The notes beneath the pieces are model-generated. The model was given only the letters and a program-made list of their open reading frames with translations, ran no database searches and was not told the DNA's origin. The position numbers and the translations under genes are program-made. Shown one piece after another: positions 190 through 32,800 of a DNA stretch of 64,000 bases (its first letter is position 1; each line of letters begins with the position of its first letter). Source of the DNA: Puffinus mauretanicus (Eukaryota; Chordata; Aves; Procellariiformes; Procellariidae); NCBI GenBank assembly GCA_023333565.1, contig JAJKFH010000482.1, positions 62,001 through 126,000 on the forward strand. The letters are read 5' to 3'.

Positions 190-350
190 CCGGCGGGCCG
201 GGGCCGGGGCCGGGGCCGGGCCGGGGCCGGTGGGAGCGGGCGGCGGCGCGCGGGGCCGGTGGCGGAGGCGGGAGGGGGCGGGAGCAGGAAGTGACCGGGG
301 CCGCCCCGCCCCGCCCCGCCCCGCGCATGCGCCCCGCGCCCGGGGAGGCG
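190..350 (-). promoter_or_regulatory. CpG-island promoter and probable noncoding first exon of a leftward gene
   Basis: This is a very CpG-rich block with GC boxes, an NRF1-type palindrome GCGCATGCGC at 323-332 and an ETS-type core (AGGAAGTGA) near 287-295. On the minus strand the block ends in a good splice donor, GCCG|GTGAGTGC, with the exon edge at 190. That fits a noncoding first exon of a gene running left out of the window. No ATG lies between the ETS core and the donor on this strand, and the gene cannot be identified from what is visible. Confidence 0.45.
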
Positions 351-499
351 GGAAGGGGGGGCGGTACCGGGGGGCGGTACCGGGGGGCGGTGGGACCCGT
401 CGGGGCACCGGGACTCGCCACGGCACCGGGACCCGTCGGGGCACCGGGACTGTGCGATCGTGGGGGCAGCGGGACCCGCCGCGGCACCGGGACCCGGCG

Positions 500-1240
500 G
501 GGCACGGTGTGCGGCACGGCCCCCCCGTGGGGCGCGGTCCCCATGGGCACGGTCCTCGTGGGCAGGGTCCTCCCGTGGGCCGCGGTCCCCCCGTGGGGCA
601 GGGTCCCTCCGGGGCAGGGTCCCCCCGTGGGCAGGGTCCTCCCATGGGGCGCGGTCCCCCCGTGGGGCAGGGTCCCTCCGGGCAGGGTCCCCCCGTGGGG
701 CACGGTCCCCGTGGGCAGGGTCCTCCCGTGGGGCGCGGTCCCCCCGTGGGGCAGGGACCCCCGTGGGCAGGGTCACCCCGTGGGCAGCATCACGCCGTGG
801 GGCAGGGCCAGCACCCTGCGTGGTGGCCGGGCGTAGGTCCCCCGTGGGCACCCACTGAGCCCAACCAGCGCCACGCTGTGCCCCCCATGTCCCCACGGGT
901 GGCCGTGCCCACGTGTGAGGTCCGGCGGGACGTGGTGGGGATCTCCCCAGCCAGGGGGACACGGGGGACACCTGGCCCTGTGCCACCCCACAGCCATGTA
1001 GTAGCCCAAGCCAAGAGGATGTGGCATCCGTGTCCCCCACCGGCTGTGCCACCCTGTGCCCACCGAGTCCATCACGCCCCGGCCCAGCCCGGGGATACCC
1101 CACCAGCCCCCCCCGGGTGGGGACATGCAGGGGCCGGGGTGGCATCGTCCCCAAGGTGGCATCTCCCTGTCATGCGGTGGCTTCCTGCTGCCACCCGCCC
1201 TGCAGCTGCTGAGCCGATGGGATCACGGGGGGGCCTGTGC
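500..1240. other. Intergenic, G-rich, partly repetitive
   Basis: Positions 520-800 carry imperfect short repeats built on GTGGGGCAGGGTCCC and relatives. The open frames here are compositional, with no start context, splice pattern or family resemblance. Positions 800-1240 show nothing recognisable. Confidence 0.5.
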
Positions 1241-1315
1241 CCGCCATGGCACCCACGGTTGTCACGTCCCTGCTGGGGGGACAGGTCCCCATGCCGGGGA
1301 TGGGTGTCTGGGCTG

Positions 1316-1530
1316 GGGACGCTGGTGGTGGCCATGGGGTGTCACCACTGGGGACGTGGGTTGGTGCTGGGGACATGGATGGTGGCCATGGGGTGTCACC
1401 ACTGGGGACATGGGTTGGTGCTGGGGACATGGATGGTGGCCATGGGGTGTCACCACTGGGGACATGGGTTGGTGCTGGGGACATGGATGGTGGCCATGGG
1501 GTGTCACCACTGGGGACATGGGTTGGTGCC
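1316..1530. repeat. Minisatellite, 54-bp unit, about 4 copies
   Basis: The motif GCCATGGGGTGTCACCACTG recurs at 1331, 1385, 1439 and 1493, a fixed 54-bp step. Copies are nearly identical, which implies recent expansion. Because 54 is a multiple of three, open frames run through it on both strands, but there is no sign that it is coding. It lies about 300 bp upstream of the CABP4 start codon. Confidence 0.9.
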
Positions 1531-1665
1531 AGTGCAGGGACTCAGAGAGTGGCCCCGGGACGTGCGCTGGGGACCCGGCTGGTGGCTGGCGGTGCCGTGG
1601 CCGCGTGGCTCTGCCCTGGCACGAGGCCACGGAGGACGGCGGTGGCCGGTGGCCGTTTCCTGCCA

Positions 1666-1683
1666 CTAATCACCGGTAATTGG
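1666..1683 (+). promoter_or_regulatory. Candidate homeobox (CRX/OTX-like) sites upstream of CABP4
   Basis: CTAATCA at 1666-1672 and TAATTG at 1678-1683 lie about 160 bp before the CABP4 ATG. CRX/OTX proteins prefer TAATC cores, and photoreceptor promoters usually carry them. CABP4 is a photoreceptor gene in mammals, so the sites are plausible. Such short motifs also occur often by chance. Confidence 0.3.
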
Positions 1684-1841
1684 CTTTGCCCTGCCCTGGG
1701 CCAGGGAGCCCACGGGGGGGGGCGGGGGGGGGCACGTCGGGGCGTAAGAGGATTTCCCTGCCTCCTTCTTAAGGCTCGGCCGCCCCGGGGTCCCGCTCCC
1801 TGCCCGCCTGCCCGCCCGCCTGCCCACCCGGCCCCGGCCCC

Positions 1842-4782
1842 ATGCCACGCACCCGGGGGGACAAGGGGACCCCCAAGGACACGGAAGCCCCAGGCAAAGG
1901 GAAAGGGGGGGAGGTGGGTGAGAAAACCCCCAAAGCCCCCGAGGACGGTGGCCCCCCGGGCATCAAGAGCCCTGGCTCCGAGTCCCGGCACAGCAGCCAC
2001 GGGCAGAAGAACGGCAAGAAGGGACCTGGGGACCCTCACGCCGCCGCCAGCAAGACCTACTCCCCCTTCCTCAACACCATCTTCGGCAAGGTGGGGGCAG
2101 CCGGGCAGGGCACGGGGACACTGGGCATGGAGGGGACATGGGGACGAGGTTGGGGATGCTCCGGGACCCTGGGGATGGAGGGAAAAATGGGGCACTGGGG
2201 ATGGGGATAGGGACAGTCCTCCTGCGAATGGAGGGGACATGGGGACAGTGACGATGGGGTTGGGGATGCTCTGGGACCCTGGGGATGGAGGGGACATGGG
2301 GACACAGGGTCAAAGTTGGGGATGCTCTGGGACCCTGGGGATGGAGGGGACATGGGGACACAGGGTCAAAGTTGGGGATGCTCTGGGACCCTGGGGATGG
2401 AGGGGACATGGGGACAGTGACGATGGGGTTGGGGATGCTCTGGGACCCTGGGGATGGAGGGGACATGGGGCATTGGGGACAGGGTCAGGGACACTCTGGG
2501 ACCATGGGGATGGAGGGGACATGGGGGAGCAGTGGGGATGGTATTGGGGACACTCCGGGACCCTGGGGATGGAGGGGACACACAGGGGGACAGCCTGGGA
2601 AGGGGGACCCGAGCCGGCAGTCCTCCGCGGGGGGGGACACGTGCTGTCCCCCCCAGCTCTGGGACTATGGATCACCCTCGGCAGCACCCGTGGGTGCTGG
2701 GCAAATCCCATTCGGAGCCTGGGGCAGCCCCAGGGTGGGTGGTGGGAGAGGGGGCCTGGGGACCAGGGCAGGGCGGGCGGGGGGCGCAGGCCCGGGGCAG
2801 GGCAGGGCTTTGCTTCCAATCCCTCTAATCCCTCCCGCCGGAGTTAATTTTGGCCCACGCTTAACGAAGGTGACACCGCGGTTTGCTGGGGGGGGGCGGG
2901 TTGGGGCTGAGCTGGGTCTGACTCTGCCCCCACCCCATGTGCGCCCGGCCCAGGAGCGGGAGCTGTCACCAGAGGAGCTGGACGGTGAGCACGGGGGACA
3001 CGGGGGACACGGTGGGCTGGGGTGGGCCGTGGGCGTGGGGGCAGGTGCCATGGAGGGCTCTGCCATGGGGTGCGGTGCCATGGGGACACGTGCCATGGGG
3101 GGATCTGCCATGGGGTGCGGTGCCATGGGGACACGTGCCATGGGGGGATCTGCCATGGGGTGCGGTGCCACGGGGCCACGTGCCATGGGGGGATCTGCCA
3201 TGGGGTGTGGTGCCACGGGGCCACGTGCCATGGGGCGATCTGCCATGGGGTGCGGTGCCATGGGGCCACGTGCCATGGGGCGATCTGCCATGGGGTGCGG
3301 TGCCATGAGGCCATATGCCATGGGGCGATTTGCCATGGGGCACCGCGCCATGGGGCCACGTGCCATGGGGGGATCTGCCATGGGGTGCGGTGCCATGGGG
3401 CCACGTGCCATGGGGCGATCTGCCATGGGGTGCGGTGCCACAGGGCCACGTGTCACAGCACCGCATCCAGGGAGGGACCTGCCCCAGGGTGGCGCGGTGC
3501 CCACCTGACGGGGTCCATATCCCCGCGTGTGCCCGCGCGCGTGGGCAGAGCTGCTGGACGCCTTCAAGGAGTTCGACACGGACCAGGACGGGTACATCAG
3601 CTACAAGGACCTGGGCCCCTGCATGCGCACCCTGGGGTACATGCCCACCGAGATGGAGCTCATCGAGATCTCCCAGCACATCAAGATGAGGAGTGAGCGT
3701 GGGGCCGGCCGCCGCGGGGCTGGGGGGGCAGCTGGGGGGCAGGGGCCGGGGCGTGGGGTGCTGAGGTTGTCCCTTTCCCACGCGCAGTGGGCGGCCACGT
3801 GGACTTTGAGGACTTTGTGCAGATGATGGGGCCGAAGCTGCGGGAGGAGACGGCCCACATGGTGGGCGTGAGGGAGCTCAAGATCGCCTTCCGTGAGGTA
3901 TGGCCACCGCCACGGGGGACCACGGCCCCGGGGGGGACCACAGGTATGGAGGGGACAGTGACCATGGGAAGACCATGGGGAGACCGTGACCACGGGGAAA
4001 TGGTGACCATGGGGGTGAGCAGGGGCATGGAGGGGACAGTGACCATGGGAAGACCATGGGGTGACCGTGACCATGGGGAAATGGTGACCATGGGGGTGAC
4101 CATGGGCATGGAGAGGACAGTGACTGTGGGAAGACCATGACTATGGGGATGGACAGTGACCATGGGGGTGACCACGGGCATGGAGGGGATGGTGAGCATG
4201 GGAACACTGTGTGGTAACAATGGCCACAGGTGTGACCACAGGCATGGAGAGGACAGCAAACTTGGAAAGACCACGGGGGAACAATGACTATGGGGGTGAC
4301 CAAAGGCATGGAGGGGACAGTGACCACAGGAAGACCATGGGGTGACCATGACCACAGGGAAATGGTGACCATGGGGGTGACCACAGGCATGGAGGGGATG
4401 GTGACCACAAGAAGACCAGGGGGTGACCATGGCCCTGGAGGGAGGGTGGTGGGGCCGGTGGGGAGGGCAACCCCCAACCTGTGGGCGCCGCAGTTCGACA
4501 TGAACGGGGACGGGGAGATCAGCAGCGCGGAGATGCGGGAGGCCATCGCGGCGCTGCTGGGGGAGCAGCTGAAGGCGCAGGAGGTGGACGAGATCCTGCA
4601 GGACGTCGACCTCAACGGGGATGGGCGCGTGGACTTTGATGGTGAGGGGCCCCCCCTTCCCTGCAGTCCCCCCTGCCCCATGGCACGTGGCCGTGGGCTG
4701 CCAAGGGTGGCTCAGCCCCGGCTCCCCTCACACCCTCCTCCCTCGCCCCGCAGAGTTCGTTATGATGCTGTCATCCCGGTAA
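1842..4782 (+). CDS. CABP4: Calcium-binding protein 4 (CaBP4), neuronal calmodulin-like protein
   Basis: Six coding exons: 1842-2090, 2954-2984, 3549-3692, 3788-3897, 4494-4641 and 4754-4782. All junctions are GT-AG and in phase, giving 236 aa. The first 80 residues are Lys/Pro/Gly-rich and disordered. EF1 has a canonical loop ([12 protein letters not shown], about 103-114), EF2 is degenerate as in all CaBPs, and EF3 (about 180-191) and EF4 (about 217-228) are canonical. The segments SQHIKMRMGG and KLREETAHM, and the C-terminus VMMLSSR, resemble mammalian CABP4 more than CABP1 or CABP2. CaBP4 binds the C-terminus of Cav1.4 in photoreceptor terminals and modulates channel gating. The second residue is Pro, so there is no N-myristoylation signal. 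AATAAA at 4991-4996 ends the transcript. CABP2 is the main alternative identity. Confidence 0.87.
2105..2590. repeat. Minisatellite in CABP4 intron 1, about 56-bp unit
   Basis: The core CTGGGACCCTGGGGATGG recurs at 2271, 2327, 2383 and 2440, with more diverged copies on both sides. Units differ by small substitutions and single-base length changes. It lies wholly inside the first CABP4 intron. Confidence 0.85.
3050..3460. repeat. Minisatellite in CABP4 intron 2, 45-bp unit made of 15-bp subunits
   Basis: About nine 45-bp units start at 3061 and 3106 and continue rightward. Each is built from three GCCATGGGG-type 15-bp subunits, so CCATGG recurs roughly every 15 bp. Length in multiples of three leaves open frames on both strands, but the array is intronic. 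Confidence 0.88.
3944..4430. repeat. Minisatellite in CABP4 intron 4, 81-bp unit
   Basis: The segment GCATGGAGGGGACAGTGACC or a close variant recurs at about 3945, 4026 and 4107, an 81-bp step. Shorter and rearranged copies follow up to the exon 5 acceptor region. This is the third unrelated tandem array in this one gene. Confidence 0.8.
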
Positions 4783-4990
4783 CGAAGCCTCAAGGCAGGA
4801 GAGGACACCCCACCCTGATCCTTGTCCAGGCGCTCCCTGCCCAGTTGCCCACCCCAACCTCTCTGCCAGCATTAGGGTTCAGAGTGAACAGCTGGAGCTG
4901 AGCCCACATCTGGGAGTGGGGCAGACATGAGAGCCCCAACCCCAACAGCCCCCGGGGGTGGCAGCAGGGCTGGGGAGGGCTGGGGGACCC

Positions 4991-4996
4991 AATAAA
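4991..4996 (+). terminator. CABP4 polyadenylation signal AATAAA
   Basis: A canonical hexamer about 210 bp after the CABP4 stop codon, followed by T/G-rich sequence. Confidence 0.8.
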
Positions 4997-5289
4997 CCCC
5001 CTTGGTCAGAGCTGGAGGTGTCTGTTGGTCGTTGGGAGGGGACACGGGGTGGGGTGTGACCGTCCCCAGCCCCTGCCCACGCAGGCTCTGCCCGGGGTGT
5101 GGAGGGGGGGCGGGTGGGGCACAGCTCAGTGCCTGGGGGTCCCACAGGGGACAGGGACAGCGGCCCTGGGGGGGGGAGCTGGGGGAGCTGGGGGAGAAGG
5201 CAGGGCAGGCAGGGTGGGACAGGGTGCAGGCAGGGTGCGGGCAGGGTGCCTGCTCTGCACTCCTGCAGGCACAAAGCACCTGGGGAGCT

Positions 5290-5640
5290 CGCTGGGGTAC
5301 AGGCAGGACTCTGGGGTACAGGCAGGGCCCGGGGGTACGGGCAGGGTTCAGGGGAACAGGCAGGGTTCAAGGGTACAGGCAGGGCACCAGGGTACAGGCA
5401 GGGCTCAGGGGTACAGGCAGGGTTCAGGGGGTACAGGCAGGGCTCAAGGGTACAGGCAGGGTTCAAGGGGTACAGGCAGGGTTCAGGGGGTGCAGGCAGG
5501 GCACCAGGGTACAGGCAGGGCTCAGGGGTACAGGCAGGGCTCAAGGGTACAGGCAGGGTTCAAGGGGTACAGGCAGGGTTCAGGGGGTGCAGGCAGGGTT
5601 CAGGGGGTGCAGGCAGGACGCTGGGGTACAGGCAGGGCCC
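5290..5640. repeat. Short-unit minisatellite, about 18-20 bp
   Basis: About 18 copies of GGTACAGGCAGGGTTCAAG-type units in which GGTT/GGCT/GGGC and CAGG/CAAG variants alternate. It sits between the CABP4 polyadenylation site and the CCAAT cluster. Confidence 0.88.
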
Positions 5641-5671
5641 GGGGGGGCGGGGCAGGGGCAGGCGCTCTGCC

Positions 5672-25509: not shown

Positions 25510-26405
25510 TCACGGACGCGCGTGTCCCCCAGCTGTCACCGCATCCATAGCTCTGTCCATCCCCACCCGTGTGCCCTATCCCCAGCCGTGCCCCCCCCCC
25601 CAGCTGTGACCTCCATCCACAGCCGCGTCCCCCAATTCTGTCCCCTGTCCGCAACCATGTCCCCCAGCTGTCCCCTCTCCCCAGCTGTGACCACTATCCA
25701 TAGCCGCGTCCCCTCTCCCCAGCCACGTCCCCTCTCCCCAACCGTGTCCCCCGTCCCCAGCCGCATCCCCTCTCCCCAGCCACATCCCCCATCCCCAGCC
25801 ATGGCCCCCGTTCCCAGCTGTGTCCCCCATCCCCGTCCGTGTCCCCTCTCCCCAGCCGTGTCCCCCATCCCCAGCTGCGTCCCCCCAGCCACGTCCCCTC
25901 TCCCCAACCGTGTCCCCCGTCCCCAGCTATGTCCCCCATTCTCCCAGCTGTGTCCCCATCCCCGTCCGTGTCCCTCTCCCCGCCTCCTTGTCCCCATCCC
26001 CAGGCATGTCCCCCATTCTAGCTGTGTCCCCATCCCTGTCCTATGTCCCTCTCCCTCAGCCATGTCCTCCCCAGCTGTGTCCCCATCCCCAGCTGGGTGT
26101 CCCCCAGCCACGTCCCTCTCCCCAGCTGTGTCCTGTATCCCCAGCTAGTGCCCCCCAGCCACGTCCCTCTCCCCAGCTGTGTCCCTGTCCCCAGCTGTGT
26201 CCCCTGTCCCCAGTCAGCATCCTCCTCTCCCCAGCCACATCCCCCATCCCCAGCCATGTCCCCCGTTCCCAGCTGTGTCCCCCATCCCCGTCCGTGTCCC
26301 CTCTCCCCAGCCATGTCCCCCATCCCCAGCTGCATCCCCCCAGCCGTGTCCCCTCTCCCCAGCCGTGTCCCCCATCCCCAGCCATGTCCCCCACTGCAGC
26401 CACCC
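25510..26405. repeat. C-rich minisatellite array between PATL1 and STX3
   Basis: About 890 bp of roughly 20-bp units of the type CCCCAGCCGTGTCCCCTCTC, with many variants and higher-order blocks. For example, parts of 25740-25990 and 26220-26400 repeat the same unit series. It fills the interval between the two divergent genes. Confidence 0.88.
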
Positions 26406-26820
26406 GTGACCGGGGACGACACGTCGTTGGCGCGTGACCCCCGTGGGGACCAGCTTCCTCATCGCCTCCCAGCCGGGGCCACCCCGCATCCGTCCCCGCC
26501 TCGCCGCCACCTCCCGGGGTGGCCGGGGGCACCCACAGCCGTCGCCTTTAACGGGCCCGGTGTCCCCGAGTGTCCCAGGTGAAGGGTGGCTCCACCTCGT
26601 CCCTCCCCTCGGCGCCTTCCTGCCTTCCTTGTGCCTGTCACTGGGGATTAGCGAAGGGACAGCCCTGGGCTTGGGGACAGGGACGGGGACAGGGCCACCC
26701 GCCACCTCCTCTGGATGTAGAAGGCCCAGCTGGCCGGGGAGGACCGAGGGTGGCATCCCCCATCCCTGCGGTGGGCGAGGACGGGGACCCCCCCGCGCCC
26801 CGCCAGCCCTCGGGGGCACC

Positions 26821-29800
26821 ATGAAGGACCGGCTGGAGCAGCTCAAGGCGGTGAGAGACCCCGGGGTGGGGAGGGGACGGGGGGCACCTCGTGGGGCGGG
26901 GGTCCCTGGGGCTCGCTGCGGGTCCCTGAGAGCCCACCCCATGGTGCCTGGGGGTGTCACGGGGATGGGGTCCCTGACAGCCCACCCCACGGTGCCCGGG
27001 GGTGTCACGGGGATGGGGGGCCCTGGGAGCCCACCCCACGGTGCCTGGGGGTGTCACGGGGATGGGGGGCCCTGGGAGCCCACCCCACAGTAGATGAGGG
27101 TGTCACGGGGATGGGGGTCCCTAAGAGCCCACCCCACGGTGCCGGGGGGTGTCATGGGGATGGGGTCCCTGGGAGCCCACCCCACGGTAGATGGGGGTGT
27201 CACGGGGATGGGGGTCTCTAAGAGCCCACCCCACAATGATGGGGGTGTCAGTGGAAAGGACCGGGGGGGTCAGCCCTCTGTGTCGCTTGGGGGTGCGGAG
27301 GGTATTTTGGGGGGACATGAGCTGTACCCCCCATGCTGTGGGCTGCAACGGGGAGACACCAGCCCCCACCCGGGGTTCCCGTCCCTTGGGGGGGCCGGGG
27401 GCCAATGCGGGGTGCCCACGGGGTGCCCAGCACCCTATCCTGCACCCCACACCTCGCCGCGCTCCCCGCCACCATCGCCGCTTCCTCCTCCCGCGCCCGC
27501 CCTGCCGTGGGGCCCCGCTGCCCCCCGCTCCCCGGGGGCCTCCCCCTGCCAGCGTCGGCTCCCCCCAGGCAGTGGGGGGGTCCCAGCAGCCCCCCACCCC
27601 GCGCCCGGGCCCTTGCGTGGGGCTTGGCAGGGATTTAGCGGGGATTACGAAGCCATCAGATAAAACCTTTGGGAGGGAGAGAAGGGATTAATTTTATTTT
27701 TACTCCAGCGGGGGGGGCGGGGGTCCCCAGCTGGGGCCTGTCCCCCTCTCTGGGGACACCACAGCCGGACCCCGGGGTGCCAGCGGAGATGAGGGGGGCG
27801 AGGGGAGGCAGAGGGGACAGGGCTGGCACCCCGGGAAGGGACGGAGCCGGGAGCCTGTGGGTGGGTGGCCAGGCATGACGCCAGGGTGATGGGCAACATC
27901 CACCTTGGGGCCCCCCGCCGAGCCCCGGCGCTGTTCAGACTGGCCACGGGACGAAGGTTGGGGCCATAAAACCCCGTCCCCGTCCCCGTCCCCTCCCTCC
28001 GGCCAAGCCCAGCAATCCCTTAATTCCCCGGCCGTGCTGGGGCCAGATGTGATTCGAGCTCAGCCCCCCCCCCCGCCGCTGCAGATGTCCCCCGCTGGGC
28101 CACCGCGTCCCCATGGCTGCTCCCGCCGCGTCCCCCCCTGACCCCGCAGAGCTGGTGGCCGCCCCGGGTGACTGTCACCCAGGGGGTGTCCCCGAGTGCA
28201 AGCAAGGGGGGTGCCACCCCTGAGCGCTGCCCGCCGTACCCCGCAGAAGCAGGACGCGGACGATGACACGGAGGAGCTGGAGATCGCCGTCGACAACACG
28301 GCGTTCATGGACGAGTTCTTCTCGGAGGTGAGGGGGGGGCCGGGCACGGGGCAGGGGGGTGCGGGGCTGCCTCCTGACCCCCCCCCCATCCTGCCCGGCT
28401 TGTCTAGATCGAGGAGACCCGGCAAAACATCGACAAGATCTCGGAGAACGTGGAGGAGGCCAAGAAGCTCTACAGCATCATCCTCTCGGCCCCCATCCCT
28501 GAGCAGAGTGAGTGTGACAGCCGCGTCCCCTCCCTGGGTCACGGGTCCCCTCCCCAGGTCACGGGTCCCCTACCCGGGGACGTTCGCGCGGTGGCTTCCC
28601 CGTCTCACGTGCTGCGACCCCGCAGAGACCAAAGATGACCTGGAGCAGCTGACGGCGGAGATCAAGAAAATGGCCAACGGCGTCCGCAACAAGCTGAAGA
28701 GTGAGTGGCCGCGGTCCCACCAGCCCCGCGGGTCCCCCTGTCCCCGTGGGAAGGGCAGGGTGTGCTGGGGACACTGGGGCCGTGGTGTGGTGGGGAAGGT
28801 CCCTGACGGGCTGGGGTCCGGCTCTCGCCAGGCATGGAGAGGAACATCGAGCAGGACGAGGCGCGGTCCTCCGCCGACCTCCGGATACGCAAGTCCCAGG
28901 TGAGCTCCGCTCCCTGGGGGACCCCGTCCCCAGCACCGGGTCCTGACCCCGGGGACCAGGGAGGTGCCATGCCCAGGGTGTCCCCAGCCCCATGTCCTTG
29001 TCCCCATCCCCAGCACCGGGTCCTGACCCCGGGGACCAGGGAGGTGCCATGCCCAGGGTGTCCCCAGCCCCATGTCCTTGTCCCCATCCCCAGCACTGGG
29101 TCCTGACCCCGGGGACCAGGGAGGTGCCATGCCCGGGGTGTCCCCAGCCCCATGTCCTTGTCCCCATCCCCAGCACTGGGTCCTGACCCCAGGGACCAGG
29201 GAGGTGCCATGCCCGGGGTGTCCCCAGCCCCATGTCCTTGTCCCCATCCCCAGCACTGGGTCCTGACCCTCGGGACCAGGGAGGTGCCATGCCCGGGGTG
29301 TCCCCAGCCCCATGTCCTTGTCCCCATCCCCAGCACTGGGTCCTGACCCTCGGGGGACCAGGGAGGTGCCATGCCCAGGGTGTCCCCAGCCCCATGTCCG
29401 TGTCCCCATCCCCAGCACTGGGTCCTGACCCTCGGGACCAGGGAGGTGCCATGCCCAGGGTGTCCCCAGCCCCATGTCCTTGTCCCCATCCCCAGCACTG
29501 GGTCCTGACCCCGGGGACCAGGGAGGTGCCATGCCCAGGGTGTCCCCAGCCCCATGTGCTTGTCCCCATCCCCAGCACTGGGTCCTGACCCTCGGGACCA
29601 GGGAGGTGCCATGCCCAGGGTGTCCCCAGCCCCATGTCCTTGTCCCCATCCCCAGCACTGGGTCCTGTCCCCCAGGGACCGGGGAGGTGCCATGCCCTGA
29701 GTGTCCCCAGCCCCACGTCCTTGTCCCCGTCCCCAGCACTGGGTCCTGTCCCCCAGGGACCGGGGAGGTGCCATGCCCGGGGTGTCCCCAGCCCCACGTC

Positions 29801-32800
29801 CTTGTCCCCATCCCCAGCACTGGGTCCTGTCCCCCAGGGACCGGGGAGGTGCCATGCCCGGGGTGTCCCCAGCCCCACGTCCTTGTCCCCGTCCCCAGCA
29901 CTCGGTCCTGTCCCGCAAGTTCGTTGACGTCATGACCAAGTACAACGAGGCGCAGGTCGACTTCCGGGAGCGCAGCAAGGGCCGGATCCAGCGCCAGCTC
30001 GAGATCAGTGCGTGCCCCCCGCCCCCTCAGGCCCCGCCCCTCTGGAGAACTGGGCGGGGCTTCATCCTTCTGACCCTGCCCCTTTAGCAAAATGGGTGGA
30101 GCCAGGCCCTACAGACCCCACCTCTTTGGCAAAGTGGGTGGAGCCACATCATACAGACCCCACCCCTTTGGCAAAGTAGGTGGAGCAAGGCCCTACAGAC
30201 CCCACCCCTTTGGCAAAGTGGGTGGAGCCAGGCCCTACAGACCCCACCCCTTTGGCAAAGTGGGTGGAGCCAGACCCTACAGACCCCACCTCTTTGGCAG
30301 TGGTGAGCCAGCCCCTACAGACCTGCCCCTTTGGTAGAGATGGGTGGAGCCCCCCTACAGACCCCACCTCTTTGGCAAAGTGGATTTTGGAGCCAGCCCT
30401 ACAGACCCAGCCCTGGTAAAACAGATGGAGCTGGACACTAAAGACCCGCCCTTTTGTGAAGCTGGTGGAGCTAGGCCCCAAAGACCCTGCCCCTTTGGGA
30501 AAGTGGGTGGAGCCAGGCCCTCCAGGCCCCACCCCTTTTAAGCAAAGTGGTGAGCTAGCCCTACAGACCCCACCCCTTTGGTAAAAGCAGACAGCTGGAC
30601 TAAAGACCCCACCCCTTCAGCAGTGCAGTGGAGCTAGGCCTCAGACCCTGCCTCCTTTGATGGAGTGCATGGGCCTCCCACTGGACCCCACGTTCAAGTA
30701 GCCGGGTGAGAACACGACGAGGAGCTGGGCTGAGATGCTGGAGCGGGAACCCCTCCATCTTCACCTCCGGGGTGCGCCCACTGGGGGGGGGGACCAGGGG
30801 ACCAACTAGGACTCCCTGATTCGCCCTCGCCCCTTCCCCGCCTCGTCGCAGATCATGGACTCTAGGATCTCAAGCAAGGCTGAGCTAGACGAGGCAGCCT
30901 ACAAGGACATCGTGCGGGTGAGAGCAGCATCAAGGGAGCCACACTCTATTTCTGCCGACATCGCCATGCTGGTGGAGAACCAGGTACGGCTCTGTGGGGG
31001 ACAGCAGGACCTGTGCATGGGCTGCATGGGGATGAGCAGGACCTGTGCATGGGACCAGCAGGGACCTCAGATGGGACAAGCAGGATCCGTGGCATGGGAC
31101 GGTAGCAGGGACCCTGCATGGGGATGACAGCATGGGGGCTGCACGCGGGACCCAGTAGCAGGGGACTGCATGGCACAGCCCAGCAGGGACTCCAGCACAC
31201 AGGGCGACAGGGACCTGTGCATGAGGAGTGAGCAGGGACCTGTGCATGGGGCTGCACGTGGACAAGCAGGACCTGTGCATAGGGACAAGGCTGCACAGGG
31301 ATGAGCAGGGACTCAGCCCGTAGGGCTGTGCCAGGGATGAGCAAGGACCTGTGCATGAGGATGAGAGCAGGGACCTGTGCATGGGCTGCATGGGGACGAG
31401 CAGGGACCTGTGCATGGGCTGCATGGGATGAGCAGACCGTGCATGAGGCTGCACAGGGATGAGCAGGGACCTGTGCATGGGACTGTGTGGGGACCTGTGC
31501 AGGGCAGGGACTCAGTGCATGGGCTGCACAGGCATGGGGCTGCACGTGGACAAGCAGGGACCTGTGCATGGGGCTGCACAGGGAAGACCAGGGACCTGTG
31601 CATGGGCTGCATGGGGACGAGCAGGGACCTGTGCATGGGCTGCATGGGGACGACCAGGGACCTGTGCATGAGGATGCGTGGCGACCCATGCGTGAAGCCG
31701 CACAGGGACTGGCACTCAGGGCTGTGCAGGGCTCCGTGGGGACACAGGGTGGCACGGGGCCACGTGGGCACCTGCACGGGGCAGCACAGGGACCCGTGCA
31801 GGGGGACCCAGGCACGGAGCCAGGCGGGGCTGGGTGGTGACCGGTGCATAGGTCCCTGTGGGACCACCCAGCACCCAAGCCCCTGGGGGCCTGGGGGGGG
31901 GGCAGGGGCGGGCAGGGGTGCGCCCCACGCCGCGGTGGTCCCGGCCCCTCTCTCAGCCCCTCTCTGTCCCCCCCATGCAATGCGAGGAGCCACCGCGTGC
32001 ACCGGGGAAGGGTGAGTACCCGCGCCGTGGGGCCGTGCCACGGGTCGTGGGGCCGTGCCACGTGCCGTGGGGCCGTGCCACGGGGTCCCTGCTGAACGTG
32101 TCCCCTCTCCTGTCCCCGCAGGGTGGGCTGCTGGATAACGTGGAGCAGCACGTGATGCACACGGCCGAGCACGTGGAGCAGGCGAACCAGCAAACCAAGA
32201 AGGCGCTCCAGTACCAGGGCCAGGCGCGCAAGGTGGGTGGGTGCCAGCACCCTTGGGTGCTCTCAGCGTCCCCCCCCCTCCTCTTCTCTCTCTCTCTGTC
32301 TCTCTCTGCCTCCGCCCCGCCGCCCCCGCGCCCCGTAGGGAGCCATGATCGACCGCATAGAGAACAACATGGACCAGTCTGTCGGCTTCGTGGAGCGGGC
32401 CGTGGCTGACACCAAAAAGGCCGTGAAGTACCAAAGTGAGGCCAGGAGGGTGAGACGGACCGACGGCCCCAGTGTCCCCCAGTGTCCCCTCCACAGCCCC
32501 CAGCATCCCAAAGGCACCCCCAGTGCCCCCCTCTGTCCCTTCACCTCTCCCAGTGCCCCCAGTATCTCCCCATATCCTCCAGTGGCCCTGAGACCCCCTT
32601 GTCACCCCAGGCACCTCATGTCCCCCAGCCAGCCCTTATGTCCCCCAACCACCCCTCGGGTCCCCACCTGCCCCCAGTGGTCCCCCAGATGACCCCAATG
32701 ACTCCCACCTACCCCCAGTGACCCCCCGCCACCCCAACCGGTCCCTGCTCCTCCCTCGTGACCTCCACGGGTTGGCAGCTCTGTCCCTCTCTGTCCCCCT

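Follow-up and report, generated by a model that had tools for sequence, protein, structure and literature searches.

We propose a model, to which we give a probability of about 60%, for the minisatellite that occupies intron 5 of the syntaxin-3 gene (STX3) in the shearwater Puffinus mauretanicus. The array would have arisen from one duplication of the intron's own 3' splice site together with the edge of the following exon, and would be tolerated since the last acceptor copy wins, perhaps with a cost in splicing efficiency. The sequence analysed, here called the window, is a stretch of 64,000 nucleotides (contig JAJKFH010000482.1, positions 62,001 to 126,000), and all coordinates below are counted from its first letter. 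STX3 lies on its + strand, where exons 1-6 and the alternative exons 9a, 9b and 10a were placed by peptides. The top protein matches come from bird syntaxin-3, the best of them with 97-99% identity, and the Pfam Syntaxin and SNARE domains are found in P0055, a 1313-nt contig of 4 member sequences, which identifies the gene as an STX3 orthologue. A sequence-only reading of the window had named the gene as syntaxin-3, had placed about 12 units of 80 bp in its intron 5 and had suggested that each unit copies the acceptor and the edge of exon 6. The exon peptides, protein matches and domains bear out the first point, and the array described below bears out the other two.

The intron 5 array and its source

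Tandem Repeats Finder (TRF) reports an array at 28922-29914 with a period of 80, 12.4 copies, 95% matches and a score of 1696. It begins 22 nt past the intron 5 donor, ends 16 bases into exon 6 and fills nearly the whole intron (Table 1). Intron 5 (28900-29898) measures 999 nt, and since introns 2-4 span only 80, 118 and 131 nt, its length is explained by the array. Cutting the array at the acceptor gives 12 full units (28934-29898), which are arranged head to tail and lie within the range of about 10-100 bp that defines a minisatellite or variable number of tandem repeats (VNTR): units 1-5 and 7-9 are 80 bp long, unit 6 is 82 bp and units 10-12 are 81 bp. In each, a C-rich tract and an AG are accompanied by a copy of roughly the first 16 exon 6 bases. 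The unit is in other words about 64 nt of intron end joined to 16 nt of exon edge, a duplication of the type known from NOTCH1 juxtamembrane expansions. CACTGGGTCCTG is present in 10 of the 12 units, units 1-2 having CACCGGGTCCTG instead, and the units form two blocks, 1-9 and 10-12, with identities of 0.88-0.95 between them and higher values within each (Table 1). TRF gave 74 rows for the whole window; when 16 rows from STX3 were compared with nine of its exons (exons 7-8 left out), only the intron 5 array and one sub-row of it overlapped an exon.

The true junction reads TCCCCAG followed by CACTCGGTCCTGTCCCGCAAG, with exon 6 starting at 29899. The first 16 bases of the exon are matched at 15 positions in units 10-12, at 14 in units 3-9 and at 13 in units 1-2, while the best match outside the array is 13/16, reached at 2 of 125,906 positions on both strands of the window. 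The exon copy in the units is above chance level. Of 165 syntaxin records retrieved in two initial protein searches, 162 show the boundary of KSQ with H/YxxLSRK; since these edge bases code for protein and are conserved, the exon served as the source and the intron received the copy. In every one of the 12 units a G stands where the exon has a C (CACT[C/G]GG; CACCGGG in units 1-2), and this shared G would fit a single mutated copy amplified afterwards, and not a series of fresh copies taken from the exon. The units closest to the exon resemble it most (15/16 against 13-14/16) and have its CTGTCCC, and we infer a direction of growth for the array. An ancestral tandem duplication may have taken in the last 64 or so bases of a short intron 5 plus some 16 bases from the start of exon 6; the duplicate could then have been amplified to about 12 units by an ordinary minisatellite process. 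G-quadruplexes were considered as an engine of this expansion: no strict motif occurs on either strand and 12 relaxed ones (loops of up to 12) lie on the minus strand, one per unit, and the proposal stays an idea. By eye, the intron head GCTCCC is similar to the exon's TGTCCC, a likeness that raises the idea of a microhomology origin.

Table 1. Features of the STX3 exon 5 to exon 6 interval in window coordinates
Feature	Position	Strand	Description
STX3 exon 5	28832..28899	+	Ends ...RIRKSQ, phase 0; donor GTGAGC next
Intron 5 head, 34 nt	28900..28933	+	Donor and single-copy start; closes with short partial copy ...CCCCGTCCCCAG
Units 1-9, 5' type	28934..29655	+	CTGACCC after exon-edge copy; identity 0.93-1.00
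Units 10-12, 3' type, 81 bp each	29656..29898	+	CTGTCCC as in exon; identity 0.96-0.99
Unit 11	29737..29817	+	Acceptor 23-mer same as true; exon from 29737 would add 54 residues in frame
Unit 12	29818..29898	+	Tail is true acceptor region; exon from 29818 would add 27 residues in frame
True acceptor	29876..29898	+	Candidate branch A at -22, C-rich tract, AG at 29897-29898
Exon 6, first 16 bases	29899..29914	+	Copied in every unit; end of TRF array
STX3 exon 6, 109 nt	29899..30007	+	Begins CAC TCG GTC CTG TCC CGC AAG (HSVLSRK)
In-exon AG, 21 nt into exon 6	29918..29919	+	Fits alternative acceptor implied by isoforms without HSVLSRK

Choice among near-identical acceptors

What singles out the true acceptor? 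Its 23-mer (-20 to +3) recurs exactly at 29737 only, with one mismatch at 8 sites and with two at 2, and no further + strand site in the window lies within 3 mismatches of it. The first look-alike, at 28934, shows 6/23 differences and its use would leave an intron of 34 nt, so that of the dozen or so decoy acceptors claimed by the sequence-only reading 11 are plausible. At these 11 sites the unit carries the splice site of the adjacent exon with 0-2 base differences, as in arrays of the IFI6 and ABCA7 type, and models that score only the local signal must rate the nearest decoys like the true site. With differences this small, local signals cannot pick the true acceptor, whereas the downstream context can: runs of at least three G within 80 nt downstream number 4 at the decoys (3 at one of the twelve) and 1 at the true site. 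In small vertebrate introns, G triplets reportedly enforce the intron borders (McCullough and Berget 1997). RNA accessibility was rejected as the reason for the true site winning, as its AG has a predicted value of 0.04 against 0.05-0.31 at all twelve upstream sites; its -22 A is the most open, at 0.81 against 0.03-0.71. Recursive splicing was likewise rejected, since the AG of the unit is followed by CAC and not by GT and there is no ratchet site.

The contig P0055 comes from a source labelled 'lgn', which we take to be assembled public sequencing runs. Over exons 1-6 it agrees with the window at all of 154 residues, among them Gly-89, where 12 close relatives have Ser, and across exon 9b and the following intron at 112/117. 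P0055 is spliced and its exon 5-exon 6 junction is canonical. No residues were found between KSQ and HSVLSRK in 265 fetched proteins, even though one query contained the insert and should have brought any such protein near the top of its list; the searches took the best 120 of 2162 hits and, for the insert-containing query, the best 120 of 2815. Among 165 records the junction is canonical in 162, shorter in 2 and without exon 5 in 1, an absence of inserts that weighs little where records are predictions. These data, which include little transcript evidence, suggest that the canonical junction is still favoured over the decoys. In human STX3 isoform 6 (P0081) and Athene noctua X6 (P0013) exon 6 begins 21 nt later and HSVLSRK is missing, which implies an identical in-exon acceptor position in a mammal and an owl. 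The boundary of exons 5 and 6 is thus flexible on the exon side, with no intron-side use seen in the fetched proteins.

Based on these observations, each unit can be interpreted as a complete acceptor whose 'exon' would be only 16 bases long before the intron-like, G-run-rich repeat begins again. The spliceosome might recognise many sites in the array, while productive splicing would occur mainly at the last copy, the only one with a real exon and a donor behind it. The effect would be at most an efficiency cost, in which several acceptors are occupied together and some retention or nonsense-mediated decay products appear, and this cost would scale with copy number. We infer the last copy as the dominant choice, together with such a cost, by analogy with substrates built in the laboratory. 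In vitro, a duplicated beta-globin acceptor whose upstream copy kept 14, 55 or 205 nt of exon was spliced very inefficiently and at the downstream site only (PMC5389562, in excerpt). In a second duplicated-site substrate about half of the molecules bound two U2AF and two U2 in vitro; it too was spliced poorly, improving once a competitor lowered occupancy (PMC5389562, in excerpt). The STX3 array resembles these constructs in its tandem identical acceptors and in the short exon piece upstream (14 nt in one of the constructs, 16 nt in STX3; PMC5389562, in excerpt). The constructs hold two copies in a test tube, STX3 about twelve in a genome. The duplicated 3' splice-site design is reportedly that of Reed and Maniatis (1986).

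Several points weigh against this model. The globin copy with a 205-nt exon also lost (PMC5389562, in excerpt), so that exon length need not decide, and the shortness of the introns nearby hints at intron definition, a mode in which the nearer acceptors would have the advantage. Duplications of NOTCH1 intron 27/exon 28 (PMC4085879, in excerpt) and acceptor-creating variants within NOTCH1 introns (PMC11718197, in excerpt) demonstrate that an upstream acceptor can prevail in vivo, the outcome being a lengthened protein. The predicted accessibility given above does not favour the true AG. Finally, P0055 is a single contig that counts as RNA because it is spliced; no ratio can be drawn from it, and unstable decoy products would stay invisible in it.

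Traces in other birds and alternative readings

Birds that have the array without the exon-edge sequence would tell against the proposed origin, a point that had been raised by the sequence-only reading, and the traces found elsewhere point the other way: exon-edge sequence appears in manakin and leafbird models, and in an egret a unit stands beside exon 6. These traces were read in predicted protein models and not in bird DNA. The egret record (P0121, Egretta garzetta, 153 residues) begins MPGVSPALCPCPHPQ and passes directly into HSVLSRKF, with 14/15 residues matching the translation of a window unit. In the manakin (P0166, Lepidothrix coronata, predicted) RIRKSQ is followed by HSVLS and then by a stretch that aligns to a window unit free of gaps over 48 positions, 21 of them identical, a score that 0/300 shuffles reached; the best-fitting unit frame has 15 residues in common with it in the first 32 positions. 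The leafbird (P0172, Chloropsis hardwickii) has LPCPQYSVLSP within a retained intron. As a whole, P0172 was rejected as a match to the array, being no better than shuffles (1/300 reached its score) and keeping only the exon-edge words PQ-YSVLSP. In the retained-intron models of a coucal (P0176) and an antbird (P0167) no unit was found. P0166 and P0172 jump to exon 9b without exons 6-8, and so are predictions over an assembly gap and not RNA evidence. The duplication of acceptor and exon edge, as these models suggest, predates P. mauretanicus and is common to songbird relatives, although a recurrent origin is possible. It was also observed that avian STX3 annotation is probably often damaged by intron 5, since P0166 and P0172 skip exons 6-8 and include repeat-coded residues. 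The text of PMC8449477, which deals with sequencing-refractory bird regions, contains none of the terms STX3, minisatellite, tandem repeat, OSBP and PATL1.

What would follow if a decoy were used? Translated from each decoy into exon 6, 10 of the 12 frames meet a stop after 14, 30, 84 or 119 residues; unit 10 is in frame, yet contains a stop, and the reading frame is kept and stays open at 29737 and 29818 alone. The idea that decoy splicing adds repeat sequence to the protein therefore stands for the two nearest sites and falls for the other ten. The insert had been expected between Habc and the SNARE motif. Its insertion point, after residue 118, lies instead inside Habc, within Pfam Syntaxin (30-179) and within the stretches aligned to the syntaxin-1A N-terminal-domain chains 1ez3 (25-149) and 1br0 (29-145). 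A proline-rich insert would sit within the Habc bundle and probably unfold Habc.

The decoys might nevertheless be used appreciably as a form of unproductive splicing, in which stop-bearing transcripts are destroyed and copy number sets STX3 output; we consider this improbable, though the strongest of the alternatives. In its favour are the 11 sites with near-identical local signals, the stops behind 10 of the 12 decoys and the precedent of ABCA7, in which a C-rich intronic VNTR at a splice site is associated with lower expression, exon skipping and retention of a single unit (PMC5954066, in excerpt). The ABCA7 unit-retention isoform, however, did not vary with VNTR length (PMC5954066, in excerpt). 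Moreover, none of the 119 hits to a decoy-truncated protein query ends in a unit peptide after RIRKSQ, the exceptions being gene models of other birds without exons 6-8, and decayed transcripts would be missed in such a search. A related proposal, which seems less probable again, is that the array is old, present in one form or another in manakin, leafbird, egret and Puffinus, and has been retained as a splicing throttle, with the two in-frame 81-bp units as reserve starts. Multiple acceptors bound by U2AF and U2 would then slow the removal of intron 5, and STX3 output would fall with copy number.

We think it very unlikely that the two open units serve as alternative exon starts, which would lengthen STX3 by 27 or 54 residues. 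Both of these 81-bp units, 11 and 12, keep the frame and have no stop, the 23-mer at 29737 equals the true one, the resulting exons of 190 and 271 nt would be of normal length, and the boundary is flexible in human isoform 6 and Athene noctua X6. Against this stand the fetched proteins, all without an insert between KSQ and HSVLSRK, and the proline-rich nature of an insert that would fall inside the Habc domain and probably unfold it. There is as little reason to believe that assembly produced the array or its copy number. Just downstream, the stretch with exons 7-8 is full of indels while relatives are intact, a sign of poor consensus nearby, but the units themselves are clean, and the changes that set them apart are consistent and specific to a block; the egret model has 14/15 residues of a unit right before HSVLSRKF, and a gap-free alignment ties the manakin model to a unit, as described above. 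Least credible of all is an ordinary intronic minisatellite whose exon likeness is a coincidence of C-rich sequence, for although CCCCAG and words resembling GTCCTG are common in the window's many minisatellites, the copies lie in register and contiguous with the exon at up to 15/16, against at most 13/16 elsewhere, and exon-edge copies recur in the manakin (HSVLS) and leafbird (YSVLS) models.

The surrounding locus, known counterparts and significance

Minisatellites abound around the array. Intron 6 holds a second one (30072-30585; 42-bp units, 77% match), which begins shortly 3' of exon 6 and overlaps no exon, and dense G- or C-rich minisatellites occupy 192-5645 and 25557-27250, upstream of STX3 and in its first intron; the one at 25557-26393, for example, has 19-bp units with CCCCAG. 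Exons 7-8 (30680-30990) are scrambled by indels, with 52% identity in the main tblastn piece, whereas they are intact in P0055 and other birds; together with the ragged arrays at 30040-31700 this indicates a poor consensus rather than gene decay. The alternative exons 9a and 9b adjoin each other at 32126-32449 and are both intact, presumably the expected arrangement for STX3A and STX3B.

How does the array relate to known systems? ABCA7 intron 18 carries a C-rich 25-bp VNTR in which the first two bases of the unit are the exon's donor GT, and its length is associated with skipping of exon 19 and with reduced expression (PMC5954066, in excerpt). The STX3 array is likewise a C-rich intronic minisatellite that touches an exon, with the exon's splice site at the start of the unit, and the alternative products of ABCA7 include one retained unit (PMC5954066, in excerpt). 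Unlike in ABCA7, where the donor GT of exon 18 is repeated in a 25-bp unit, STX3 repeats an acceptor and 16 coding bases in an 80-bp unit; in ABCA7 splicing and expression were measured, whereas the STX3 array is known from sequence. The human IFI6 (6-16) minisatellite reportedly provides multiple splice donor sites with a 12-nt unit. Both IFI6 and STX3 minisatellites thus supply repeated splice sites, donors in the former and acceptors with an exon edge in the latter. The juxtamembrane expansion of NOTCH1 in T-cell acute lymphoblastic leukaemia is somatic and selected for a lengthened protein, while the STX3 array is germline, has about 12 copies, and no lengthened protein was found among the fetched proteins. 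Our searches of the open-licence literature turned up neither a report of an acceptor-based minisatellite nor one dealing with STX3 intron 5. The STX3 array is the acceptor-side counterpart of the ABCA7 and IFI6 arrays, with part of the exon in its unit.

What are the implications of such an array? With near-identical acceptors in a row, the locus is a natural counterpart of a classic splicing experiment, and it tests what picks an acceptor beyond the local signal: the following exon, the downstream donor, the distance from the upstream donor or the order of transcription. The array also shows how a minisatellite can begin from a splice acceptor. It is one possible reason for the broken STX3 models of birds, in which manakin and leafbird skip exons 6-8 and the egret starts inside a unit. 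If copy number varies, the array would become a candidate source of variation in STX3 splicing between individuals.

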